Shown here: positions 52,784-58,113 of the stretch, one piece after another
How the letters are laid out: every line of letters begins with the position of its first letter
How positions within the stretch are numbered: the first letter of the stretch is position 1
Assembly: GCF_022201045.2 (NCBI RefSeq)
Contig: NC_068558.1
Location: 36,413,501-36,477,500, forward strand
DNA: 64,000 bases
Source of the DNA: Citrus sinensis
Lineage: Eukaryota > Streptophyta > Magnoliopsida > Sapindales > Rutaceae
Reading direction: 5' to 3'
Notes under the pieces: model-generated
What the model saw: the letters and a program-made list of their open reading frames with translations, nothing else
The model's database searches: none
Told to the model about the DNA's origin: nothing
Position numbers and translations under genes: made by a program

Positions 52784-53169
52784 ATGTATATGTATTCAAA
52801 ACAAATAAGATTATAAAAATTCGGAATCAATAATCAATCGGTATATAAGCTTTCCAGATAAAAAAATTACTATGGAGGTTGGAAATTTATCACGGATGCT
52901 TACTAAACATAATAATAATGAATGTGAATTATTATTATTATTATTATTACTATTATTACGCGGGTTAAATATTTATGATCATTTGAAACAACAAAACACT
53001 AATTCTTGCTCTAACGTGATTACAAATATGATCCAAACTGTAACTTCTGAGAAATTGTGGGATCCTTGTACTTTTCAATAAATTTAAAAATTCCTTGCAA
53101 AGTTGTCATACAAATTAATCACCTAGGGCTTGTGAGAGACTTGTGACGCGATAGTGTAATTGCAAAATC
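52184..53169. other. Stretch between RBR-G and RBR-H
   Basis: No gene. It contains a TA/GTATAT microsatellite (about 52747-52795), an AT repeat run (ATTATTATT) at about 52928-52950, and the CTCAGTACTCA..ACAG..AACA.CCTTTGATCAAG block, which is also found downstream of RBR-I (58200-58350). Confidence 0.45.
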
Positions 53170-53520
53170 ATGGGAAATTCTCAGCAAAAACCAATTGAAA
53201 ACGGAGAACATCCCCAGCAAGAAAAAGAAAAAATAATAATAATTAAAGAAGAAGAAATTAATGGAACCTTCACTTGTGAGATTTGCATAGAACCGACGCC
53301 GGCTAACGATAACATAAAATCTGTGTACACAACACACCCTTTTTGTCAAGACCGCATGGCCAAATACATTGAAGCCGAGGCTCAAGTTTCAAGCCAACGA
53401 CACAGACAATCGAATGCAAAATGCAAACCCATTGCGAACAATTTTTACAACCCTTTACTACCAAAATGCAAATCCATGAGCCCATAATGTTCTGGGTTTT
53501 GAAAAACGCTGTTGTCCTAA
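53170..53520 (+). pseudogene. RBR E3 ligase copy H, decayed 5' fragment
   Basis: It starts ATGGGAAATTCTCAGCAAAA like its sisters (MGNSQQKPIEN, then a Gln/Glu/Ile run). It keeps the first RING1 pair CEIC, then degenerates: the third Cys is lost (VYTTHPFCQDR), the CxxC ends in Arg, and the frame drifts through remnants of KYIEA, the CPGLHC region and IPSSLF before a stop at 53485-53487. The GTTCTGGGTTTTGAAAAACG relic of VLGFERS lies just after. The rest of exon 1 and all of exon 2 are missing. Confidence 0.85.
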
Positions 53521-53935
53521 TAATTTTGAATTTATTTTTTTTGTCAATATATTATATATTTATTAGGTTAATTCATATTTAATTGAATAGATTGATAAAA
53601 TACACTAAATTTTCAGTTGATGAAATATATATGTACATTAAAATATAAATACACTCTGTACATTGATAATTTATTAATATATCGATTAATTAGTATATTT
53701 TTAAATTATTATATATCATAGCATTGTTATTAATTTATGAAGATTATACGGTAGTTTCAATTTAGATAGCTGATGTCAAAATAATTTCCAAAAGAAGATA
53801 AATTTTAATCTCAATTTCAAAAAAAAAATAAAAATTGTAAGATGACTTAACAAAAAGTTGAAACAAATGGCAAAATTAAAGTTGCAAATAGAGAATATGG
53901 AACAAACAAATGACTTAATAGGAAATCGGTCATCA

Positions 53936-54109
53936 TTGTTAAATGTGAATTATTATTATTATCATTATACATGCACACGCATTATTATTATCATTGTTAA
54001 ATGTGAATTATTATTATTATCATTATACATGCACACGCATTATTATTATCATTGTTAAATGTGAATTATTATTATTATCATTATACATGCACACGCATTA
54101 TTATTACTG
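53936..54109. repeat. 58-bp tandem repeat, three copies
   Basis: Units start at 53936, 53994 and 54052 with TTGTTAAATGTGAATTATTA and end with TACATGCACACGCATTATTA. The copies are almost identical, so the array is young. Open frames here are repeat artefacts. A similar ATT run with GGGTAAATGTATTTGTGAT follows to 54195. Confidence 0.9.
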
Positions 54110-54632
54110 GGCAAACGTATTTGTGATCATTAGCCGAGACACAATATTATTATTATTATTATTGTTATTATTAATTGGGTAAATGTATTTGTGATAAATC
54201 CAAAGATCTGGAACTAAACTTCTCAGAAACTGCGGAATCCTTCTACTTTTAAAATTTAAATTAAATTCAAATTTCTTACCATTGCCATATTGGGAAATGT
54301 ACAAAAATAACCTAAAAATTTTTGTAATTTTTACAATGAGCCCTTCAAACTTTTTTCTATCAACATTAGCCAAACACAAAGTTTTCTTCACAAATTACCC
54401 TTGTTTACAAACCAAAAGCAACTTTTCTTCTCCCCCTTGATCAAACGAAAAGCAGTCTTGTACTTTTGAATTATCATCAGCGACGACAAACAGCAACGGC
54501 AACGGCGAACGGTAAAAATGAACTCCGATCAAATACAACATAATCCATCCAGATCCAACACTAATACGTATCACCGAGCAGTAAGAGATATTTTCTCAAC
54601 TTGCGAACTTGATTCAGTACGATTACAGACAG

Positions 54633-54842
54633 GTGCGACAGGCACCTGTCGCACTAAGATTTCGTGCGACAGGCACCTGTCGCACTAAGATTTCGTGCGA
54701 CAGGCACCTGTCGCACTAAGATTTGGTGCGACAGGCACCTGTCGCACTAAGATTTGGTGCGACAGGCTGCCTGTCGCACCAAGATTTGGTGCGACATGCA
54801 CCTGTCGCACCAAGAGTAGGTGCGACAGGTAGCCTGTCGCAC
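54633..54842. repeat. Palindromic minisatellite, seven units of 31-32 bp
   Basis: Units start at 54633, 54664, 54695, 54726, 54757, 54789 and 54820. Each has GTGCGACAGG, a 2-3 base centre, CCTGTCGCAC, then an AAGATTTS spacer. Every unit is thus an inverted repeat with 10-bp arms, and units can also pair with each other. It is GC-rich within AT-rich DNA. Confidence 0.95.
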
Positions 54843-54922
54843 CTATTTATGATAATCAAATTGCATTCTATTTTTCCGCCAGCCCCAACCTAACCATCTT
54901 AAATGTTCGTTATTTGGTGCAG

Positions 54923-55240
54923 GTTTTCAATTGCTTTGCCCGGCACTTTTGCCTGCATTTTGAGGCTTTTCACCTCGGAATGGCACCCGTTTACGTGGCC
55001 TTCCTCCGATTCATGGGTGATGAAGAAGAGGCCAGACAATTTAGTTACAGTCTGGAAGTTGGCGGAAATGGTAGAAAGCTTACGTGGCAAGGAATACCTA
55101 GAAGCATCCGCGATAGCCATAAAAAGGTTAGAGATAGCCAAGATGGATTAATCATTCAAAGGAATTTAGCTCTTTTCTTTTCTGGTGGAGATAGACAGGA
55201 GTTGAAGCTCAAAGTAGCCGGCTGAATATGGAAAGAATAG
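54923..55240 (+). pseudogene. Captured SINA/SINAT E3 ligase fragment
   Basis: After an intron-like acceptor (TTATTTGGTGCAG) the frame reads VFNCFARHFCLHFEAFHLGM, then APVYVAFLRFMGDEEEARQF, GGNGRKL, SIRDSHKKVRDSQDGLIIQR and ALFFSGGDRQELKLKVAG. This is the C-terminal substrate-binding domain of plant seven-in-absentia ubiquitin ligases. It ends at a TGA (55223-55225), and a TAG at 55238-55240 follows where the family normally continues with a few more residues. RING and zinc-finger parts are absent. The retained intron end shows capture from genomic DNA rather than cDNA. Confidence 0.9.
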
Positions 55241-55427
55241 TGAGATACATATAACTATAAACCCCGTCAAAGATATTTTACTTCGAATCTGCATCATACG
55301 TATGCGGTAGTCGAAATACTTCTGTGTAAATGTGTAGATATAGATTGCTTGCAATCTCTTTTTTCACTCTTTTATCTATTTGCTTACAGGTAAATCTAAC
55401 TTCTGCAATAAGTTTCATGTTCAACAG

Positions 55428-55580
55428 TGGCGGCTTGCATGGCACCTCTACTTCTTCGTCCCCTTCTAGCTGGTGGATGTGAGATTGAAACTGATTTCAA
55501 TGTGGGTGGTGACAGTTCTACTCGGCTTCTGCAAGCAGCAGCTGCAGCAAATCATGCTCAAATCACTCTACAATTATTTG
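55428..55580 (+). pseudogene. Captured RhoGAP (REN1-like) exon fragment
   Basis: Between an acceptor (GTTCAACAG) and a donor-like GTAAAA, the frame reads AACMAPLLLRPLLAGGCEIE, then TDFNVGGDSSTRLLQAAAAA and NHAQ. I recognise this as the C-terminal edge of the RhoGAP domain of plant PH-RhoGAP proteins of the REN1 type. The last residues are altered compared with the family. It is preceded by about 190 bp of intron-like sequence. Confidence 0.75.
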
Positions 55581-56284
55581 GTAAAAAATCTAAAATAAAA
55601 CACCACCTAAAAGCCAAAGTCACCTCAGACCTCGCACATGTTTCTTTCTGACTCAATCATTATCATATCTAGCAGCAAAGAAACCTAATCCATGAAGAAA
55701 ACTACCATGAGAAATCAAAGCTCTTAATAACTTTTCGGCACATTATGTTACTTTCAATCCCTGCTGTATCCGAAAATGCTTCTTCCTAACGTTGGGGATC
55801 ACCATAAAAGGAAGCTCTTGTAGCACGACAATTGCAGTATGTTTTTGCCAAATTTCTTAATTTGTTGTTATTCATAAACCAAACCATGCAAGCGTAAAGA
55901 AGCTTTGAGTTTCAACATCAACTGGAAACACCCAGTAAATTCAGTAAATAAGAAAAAAGAATCCAATCAGCTCTCAGCACAAACTGATGATCTTGATAAC
56001 GCATCAAGTAGATCTTGCAGTGAATTCGGCGGTGAGAGAGAGAGAGAGGAAGGAGAGGACGGAAAGGTAATGTAATGGGAGGGGCATTTTCGGCACTAGG
56101 GATGATTATTGGCTAATGTTGATAGGAAAATAGTTGAGGGGTTAGTTGTGAAAATAACAAATTTTTTTTGGTTATTTGTGTAAATTTCCCTGCCATATTT
56201 GATCAGGCTAGCCCATATATGGAGCACTTAATAGGCTCCAGTGAGAAAGAGACCTATTGTGATAAGAGATATTGCAAAATCAAT

Positions 56285-58113
56285 ATGAGAATTTCACAGC
56301 AAAAACCAATTGAAAACCGTGAGTGTATACTCCAGCAAGAAAAAGTACATGAAAATCCTCAACAAGAAATCGAATTAGAAGACACTAATGGAATCTTCAC
56401 CTGTGAGATTTGCATAGAGCCCATCTCAGCAAACGATAAATTCAGGAACAAAGATCTTTGTTCACACCATTTCTGCCAAGACTGCATAGCGAAGTACATA
56501 GAAGCCAAGGTTCAAGACAACAACACAGCAAAAATTGAATGCCCCGGGGTACATTGTGACCAATTTTTAGACCCTTTTTCTTGCAAACTCATGATCCCAT
56601 CGAATCTGTTTTCAAAGTGGTGTGATGTTCTTTTTGAGGATTATGTTCTAGGGTTTGAAAGAAGCTACTGCCCTAACAGGAACTGCATGGCTTTGGTGGT
56701 GAACGGGTGTGAGATAAATTATGGAACATTGAAGAAAGCTCGGTGCCCTAATTGTACGCAATGGTTTTGTTTTCAGTGTAAGTTGGCATGGCATGCGGGG
56801 TATCGATGTGAAGAAAGTGGAAATCTGAGGGACTGGAATGATATTGCGTTCGGGAAGCTTGTGGAGAGGATGCATTGGGCGAGATGCCCCGCCTGTGGCA
56901 GCTGTGTAGAGCGAAAAGAAGGTTGTCGTGTTATGTACTGCAGGTTTATTTTTCCTCTTACCTTGCTCTTCCTAACCATCATATGTTACTGTGTGTATCA
57001 CAAAGTTTTCGTTAATAAGTTAGTTATTATTTAATGATAACCAAAAAAACATGGTAAACATATTATCAAACATTTCACATGTAGACAGAAAAGATTTCTA
57101 ACATTATTTCTTAAAACCTTGTTTGGAACTACTCCATTGTTCCCGCTTAGCTGCCATAGCGTAACATATTCTCGGGCTAAGCATATCAGCTTAAGAAAAC
57201 ACTCAACTAGAGGTGATAATAAGGGATGGAGGATATACAAGGTTAGTGGGTGCCGTAGCACCTGCAGAAGTTTGGAAAATTTTGGGGTTACTAAATGAAA
57301 TATGAAAAGTTAGTGTAAACCGTCTATATTAATGTATAAACTTTATATATTAGATAATAAAGTAATCTAAGAGTTCCCATTAAGGCACATTAATGTTTGA
57401 TAGCCTTTTTACTTTAAGGCTTAATAATTATTTTCCTTCATCTATAAATTATAAATGCGGTCTCTTTTTTCATATAGTATTGACAGTAGATAATATTCTT
57501 AGTAATTTTTTTTTTACTTTTTGATGATTTAGCTTGGTAGTAATTTATTATTGTTAAGAACTTAAAAATTGTAAGTTTAAATTTAGCTCTCTTAAAATTT
57601 TCCACTGAGCTTTGTCCCTAGTGACAATGTGGGTTACAACTCAGTTTTTATTTTATTTTATTTGTGTTAATATAAATAAATATAATTAATAAATTAATTA
57701 ACATGCCATATCATGATATGAGTAATAATAGTGTCAAATTTATGCTGAATAACCTCAACAGATTTATCAAATTATCACACGAATATATGTTTAACCACCT
57801 CAACATTACATTTTGCACTTTAAGAAGACGCGCATGCATTAATTTGAATTATGAAAATTGATCGGTCTTATTTATGGTGCTTGCTTTTTTTTTTTTTTGT
57901 TTTTGGGCCCCCAGATGCAAGACAAGTTTTTGTTATGAGTGTGGAGGAAATTTAAAGAGTCCATCTGGGTGTTTATGCAAAGAAAAAGGTGACGTCTACT
58001 GTCATCACTACTGTGCAATCATCTGTGGACTCATTCTAATTTTTACAGTTTTAGGAGTTTTGGGAGGTGTGATCTATGGAATTTATTGTGTTATAAAGCG
58101 GGTATTATATTAA
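56285..58113 (+). CDS. RBR E3 ubiquitin ligase with membrane anchor (RBR-I)
   Basis: Exons 56285-56943 and 57915-58113, 285 aa. RING1 (CEIC, CSHHFCQDC, CPGVHC), IBR (SYCPNRNC to HAGYRC) and RING2 (CPACGSCVERKEGCRVMYC, CKTSFCYECG) are complete, with GT-AG splicing (AG|GTTTAT). The start differs from all sisters: MRISQQKP replaces MGNSxQKP, so the Gly2 that could accept a myristoyl group is lost. The open frame extends 39 codons upstream into the Pack-MULE end, but that part is not conserved. The second exon is nearly identical to that of RBR-G, while exon 1 is only about 76% identical at protein level by my count. The promoter now begins inside the Pack-MULE, so expression may have changed. 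Confidence 0.87.

Follow-up and report, generated by a model that had tools for sequence, protein, structure and literature searches.

The DNA analysed here (the window) is a stretch of 64,000 nucleotides of Citrus sinensis (C3:36413501-36477500; the genome comprises 300 Mb and 11 contigs) and contains eight RBR loci, RBR-I and seven further ones, plus one truncated piece. This truncated piece (53161-53474) lies between RBR-H and an insertion of 1,899 bp. Just upstream of the insertion, at 53932-54106, a 58-bp unit is found in three perfect tandem copies. The insertion and the gene that follows it are composed of the following features:

54283-54291, no strand: left target-site duplication (TSD), TGCCATATT, a perfect 9-bp copy
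54292-56190, plus strand: the whole element, a Pack-MULE of 1,899 bp, assigned by its TIRs, TSD, family relatives and donors
54292-54373, plus strand: left terminal inverted repeat (TIR), one arm of the inverted repeat
54374-54630, plus strand: 5′ subterminal sequence, common to the family including its longer transposase-bearing relatives
54633-54842, no strand: array of seven near-palindromes of the type GTGCGACAGG-N2/3-CCTGTCGCAC, with a spacing of 31-32 bp
54844-54856, plus strand: remnant of the first RhoGAP capture, from its left edge, matching donor L029 and the siblings L010 and L012-L015
54859-55422, plus strand: captured SINA fragment with an intron end (54859-54922), the last exon from 54923 and 3′ flank; donor C2:1045900-1046463, 98.05%
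55420-55561, plus strand: RhoGAP exon piece with its left side cut off by the SINA capture; donor C5:31361512-31361653, 96.5%
55564-55990, plus strand: captured anonymous C9 fragment; donor C9:8818410-8818835, 96%
55985-56023, plus strand: second RhoGAP exon piece of 39 bp, 100% identical to donor L029, with a few ambiguous bases overlapping the C9 match
56024-56108, plus strand: GA-rich 3′ subterminal sequence, common to relatives
56109-56190, minus strand: right TIR, the other arm of the inverted repeat
56191-56199, no strand: right TSD, TGCCATATT, a perfect 9-bp copy
56285-58113, plus strand: RBR-I, an RBR-type gene with RING and IBR domains (56285-56941); exon 1 at 56285-56943 and exon 2 at 57915-58113 in our splice model

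The element is a non-autonomous Mutator-like element, a Pack-MULE, as follows from the combination of TIRs, a TSD, transposase-bearing relatives with the same ends and host gene fragments whose donors lie elsewhere. A preliminary description of this DNA had already pointed to a Pack-MULE with TIRs of about 90 bp and a perfect 9-bp target duplication, and both features were recovered, with arms of 82 nt each at 82% complementarity and TGCCATATT on both sides. Among 4000 pairs of random points, only 2 had a perfect 9-bp match lying within 3 bases of the points. Related TIRs were also found elsewhere in the genome, in hundreds of places, the TIR-end pattern (up to 2 mismatches) giving 893 matches versus 33 for the reversed control. 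Our DNA searches of the genome scored only the top candidates (40 in the large searches), and copy counts derived from them are lower bounds. Among 21 family elements tested, the window copy included, a perfect 9-bp TSD flanks the exact ends in 14; L051 shows a perfect TSD once one end is shifted by one base, L015 and L019 have a TSD with one mismatch, and a convincing TSD was not found for the other four (L010, L020, L026 and L049). All these results come from one assembly, and an assembly error at the element is not excluded by reads. No description of the window element appeared among the papers listed by searches of the open-licence literature.

Two longer relatives share the ends of the window element. 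The first one (L055; 8,472 bp, perfect 9-bp TSD GGAATCATT) carries a frame in pieces with MULE, C48 (Ulp1) peptidase and DUF1985 domains, the transposase match to PF10551 reaching 4.4e-15 and that to DUF1985 7.3e-16, and with DBD_Tnp_Mut slightly below the cut-off. The second (L059; 7,710 bp), a 22nd family element tested and also flanked by a perfect 9-bp TSD (AATTATCTT), keeps a 715-aa frame with both transposase domains (PF10551, 4.1e-18; PF03108, 2.3e-9) and a separate DUF1985 frame (2.5e-14), whereas no C48 match was obtained in the seven frames scanned. DUF287 gave no match in the scanned frames of either element, a weak negative since these frames are broken. The two relatives are about 92% identical to each other across most of their length, and they represent a plausible source of transposase for the family; we infer that this transposase moved the window element. 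As a separate observation, four other loci (C3:6791747, C3:46306594, C8:13628879 and C8:28580079) give MULE-domain matches of equal score in 737-aa open frames, and are possibly a recently active MULE.

The preliminary description had recognized two captured genes, and parental loci for both were located, the SINA donor on C2 and the RhoGAP donor on C5; a third source, the C9 fragment at 55564-55990, had escaped it, together with the second RhoGAP scrap (55985-56023) and the palindrome array (54633-54842). Judging from these matches, the element contains DNA from three loci (C2, C5 and C9) and not from two. The SINA piece encodes a TRAF-like domain (PF03145, 4.6e-36), covers only this region without the RING, and still includes the acceptor AG at 54921-54922 along with about 63 bp of the intron before it, in agreement with the proposed SINA-type C-terminal domain exon with its splice-site edge. 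It differs from the donor at 11 of 564 sites, two of the changes falling on donor CpG sites; the translations show three amino-acid replacements and one new stop, and no sign of a preserved protein was apparent in this comparison. The genome search revealed no second SINA-bearing element, the next SINA matches being at 75%. An original splice-site edge had also been claimed for the RhoGAP exon, and this claim has to be abandoned: the left edge of the piece lies inside an exon of donor L029, and the GGTAAAAA run to its right is part of the C9 fragment. The frame of the RhoGAP donor itself gives a weak match to PF00620 (22.6 bits versus a cut-off of 24.5), and for the C9 donor we find only short ORFs in 8 kb and no Pfam match for the ORF tried.

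Capture is not restricted to this lineage. Five further family interiors were searched, and one of them, that of L050 (C2:32473275-32475215), contains unlinked single-locus fragments. This element, flanked by a perfect 9-bp TSD, took its pieces from loci on C8 and C9 and represents a second, independent Pack-MULE of the family; a 97% sister lies at C3:1824290-1825668. The other four candidates were rejected: L046 is a deletion form of longer family members, the interiors of L056 and L048 match other high-copy repeats rather than single genes, and L022 belongs to a 1-kb high-copy subfamily with no donor gene seen. The C9 donor of L050 keeps a 350-aa open frame that by eye resembles a polyprenyl synthase subunit. 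The L022 subfamily (C4:27856033-27857038), which is non-autonomous and carries the palindrome array, gives more than 30 matches at 94-99% among the matches listed, and is probably a recent burst.

Intron sequence accompanied the captured genes, for SINA in the window copy and for RhoGAP in L015, which points to a DNA template. A capture from RNA or cDNA was suggested by L050, where donor stretches of 358 bp and 63 bp are absent and might have been introns, but neither gap shows GT-AG borders and the 63-bp one falls in the open frame of the donor. These gaps are not introns, and an RNA intermediate is regarded as extremely improbable.

A comparison among the siblings allows the captures to be placed in order. 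The simplest copy (L015) holds RhoGAP only, as two blocks with a gap between them and with intron sequence present, whereas in L010, truncated at the outer 5′ end, the RhoGAP sequence is interrupted by a long C9 piece. Three other copies (L012, L013 and L014) combine RhoGAP with 40-49 bp of C9 and a piece of about 970 bp from a cytochrome P450 gene (donor C4:21278619-21279584, 97%, with a tandem copy at 95%), and the window copy combines RhoGAP, C9 and SINA, the latter found in this copy only. The C9 joint is common to the window copy, L010 and L012-L014. Moreover, the stretch displaced by SINA is kept in L010, L012-L015 and in the RhoGAP donor, and the stretch displaced by P450 is kept in the window copy and in the same donor, so that for both genes the uncaptured state is the older one. 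These pre-capture states are deduced from sibling copies, rather than from other individuals at the same locus. Altogether, the alignments show an order of capture with RhoGAP first, C9 second, and then either SINA (window lineage) or P450 (lineage of L012, L013 and L014). The P450-bearing form was afterwards moved by transposition, since its three copies are flanked by three different perfect TSDs. Divergence from the donor is 0.020 for SINA and 0.027-0.031 for P450, while the window copy differs from L012-L014 by 0.035-0.042 in the 5′ terminal part and by 0.024-0.050 in the 3′ terminal part; because the latter range overlaps the P450 divergence, dating alone does not fix the order.

The joints give an indication of how the foreign DNA entered. 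Depending on the assignment of shared bases, about 42-46 bp of element sequence were lost at SINA and about 13-18 bp at P450. At the four joints for which both parents are known, the microhomology amounts to 1, 3, 2 and 3 bp, a summed overlap of 9 with a P of about 0.010-0.016 under a negative-binomial null; single joints are not significant (P of about 0.06 for 3 bp or more in each case). The left joint of C9 shows no microhomology and a 2-nt filler, and its inclusion in the sum brings the P to 0.025-0.040. In L010 (element positions 640-700), the RhoGAP/C9 joint contains one 15-bp RhoGAP stretch twice, as would result from copying it two times.

The reading that we favour, with good confidence, is a serial capture by gap filling and template switching in a non-autonomous MULE that is moved by the transposase of its longer relatives. 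A break or a stalled fork within a resident element would be the initial event, after which one broken end would be extended by a few hundred bases with an unlinked locus as template, and would return to the element once 1-3 bp of sequence matched. In this way, a short stretch of the element would be exchanged for a long stretch of the donor, with the donor locus staying in place. Transposition then moved the P450-bearing product; the SINA-bearing product is single-copy, and the capture of its SINA piece may thus have preceded the jump to RBR-I or followed it at the present site. A different origin, the fusion of two neighbouring elements with a gene fragment between them (the Pack-CACTA model), is known from Pack-TYPE elements of Arabidopsis and rice, as set out in the consulted part of PMC13317346, and the first RhoGAP capture could have arisen like this. 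Fusion is nevertheless quite improbable as a general explanation, as both SINA and P450 are flanked by one continuous older element from which only the few bases mentioned above were lost. Furthermore, no family TIRs are found within 8 kb around the SINA, RhoGAP and C9 donors (L009, L029 and L011; 7-8 kb covered in each case), and the donor stretch L035 (again 7-8 kb) has three 25-33-bp matches to the GA-rich 3′ piece and no other family match. The joints seem to agree better with template-switched gap filling than with a fusion of neighbours. Stray donor fragments could also have been inserted by end joining at a break, without any template switching, and the filler at the left joint of C9 and the slight microhomology at the other joints are in line with this. 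Both processes leave similar scars, but an overlap sum above chance at the four joints and the re-copied stretch in L010 are usual in copying repair, and we consider simple end joining unlikely.

With regard to the target gene, 94 bp lie between the last base of the element and the ATG of RBR-I at 56285, with a further in-frame ATG at 56219, in accordance with the distance of about 95 bp given in the preliminary description. As also stated there, a fragment of one E3-ligase gene now precedes another, the SINA piece lying upstream of a RING/IBR gene. With the insertion in place, only 94 bp stay adjacent to the RBR-I start codon and the DNA farther upstream lies on the other side of the element, which may or may not affect expression. 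The captured pieces of known strand all run in the same direction as RBR-I, so that readthrough toward the gene, which in the preliminary description could create chimeric or antisense transcripts, would give sense, and not antisense, SINA and RhoGAP RNA. A weak comparison of TATA-like motifs among RBR promoters finds TATAAATA at −72 in RBR-H and only ATATATGG at −70 in RBR-I, and the motif near −70 is absent from the other RBR promoters compared in the window. The paralogous RBR promoters of the window were also considered as a source for the empty site, and discarded: their flanks align in part and are too diverged at the target.

The palindrome array sits about 1.4 kb upstream of RBR-I. Each of its seven units has 1-4 mismatched positions, and as single-stranded DNA the array is predicted to fold at −99.6 kcal/mol versus −35.8 kcal/mol for shuffles (z −17.4). 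The core pattern occurs exactly at 354 places in the genome versus 0 for the control, a genome-wide count that may include places outside the family. With a looser pattern, L055 and L059 have 1 and 2 copies of the unit and a further ten members, partial or long, have 0-2, L012 has seven, L013 and L014 four each, L010 two and L050 three. The left capture joint falls 1-2 bases inside the last palindrome both in the RhoGAP lineage and in L050, two independent cases only, and the P450 joint lies about 140 bp from the array. A speculative and rather doubtful proposal is that the array serves as a docking site for the DUF1985 protein of the family, a VANC-like anti-silencer, which would place RBR-I under a transposon-encoded trans-acting switch, and that this hairpin-prone sequence is where breaks and donor uptake start. 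If true, an immune or stress-type ubiquitin ligase would be under such a switch.

How plant DNA transposons acquire unlinked pieces of genes is still an open issue, and a 2026 review (PMC13317346) indicates, in the portion available, that an alternative, undiscovered mechanism of gene capture may exist. In this regard, two capture events of the lineage described here can be followed within one genome from the donor through the pre-capture to the post-capture sequence, and the joints of further events are available as well, so that a copying-repair model can be tested at the level of single bases. The lineage also provides concrete cases of a MULE family in which a DUF1985 protein occurs together with a palindromic motif in tandem, and of an insertion directly upstream of an E3-ligase gene.

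Several known systems resemble the family in one aspect or another. The CitMule of clementine (PMC4334395) is likewise a MULE with a 9-bp TSD from the citrus host group, but the sections at hand describe an element of about 6.9 kb, FAR1-type and with degenerate TIRs, whereas in the window family the TIRs are clear and the domains are DBD_Tnp_Mut and MULE; in PMC8903248, no mention of citrus was found. L055, with C48 (Ulp1) beside the transposase, recalls Kaonashi, the Ulp1-bearing MULEs of Arabidopsis, although these are presented as non-TIR MULEs in the part of PMC13317346 that covers them, and the window family has clear 82-bp TIRs. In the case of Arabidopsis VANDAL elements, VANC proteins contain DUF1985 and bind to motifs repeated in tandem within the non-coding DNA of the elements themselves, according to the available text of PMC5735166. 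DUF1985 is present in the longer relatives here, and a short tandem non-coding motif of variable copy number is found in both systems. The likeness to VANDAL anti-silencing is suggestive by analogy; the motif of the window family is, however, a near-palindrome unlike that of VANC21, and DUF287 was not matched in the frames scanned. Animal Pack-TIRs, for which gap-filling and FoSTeST models are set out in the available pages of PMC8277862, share the small replaced gap, the short microhomology (a median of 2 bp in animals) and the existence of single-copy and multicopy products, but here the donors lie on other chromosomes and the captures are serial. The same pages regard it as worth exploring whether these models apply to plant Pack-MULEs. 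In build, the family resembles the Pack-MULEs of rice and other plants, with their non-autonomous MULE ends, 9-bp TSD, intron-containing gene fragments, unlinked donors and several donors per element; in rice, about 100-300 MULE-derived genes per species have two or more parents, as given in the consulted part of PMC4858842. In contrast to those elements, the family has a palindrome array, and for two of its captures the states before and after the event can be read from sibling copies. The element is of an ordinary kind, and its value lies in the sibling record of serial captures and the pairing of the array with DUF1985.
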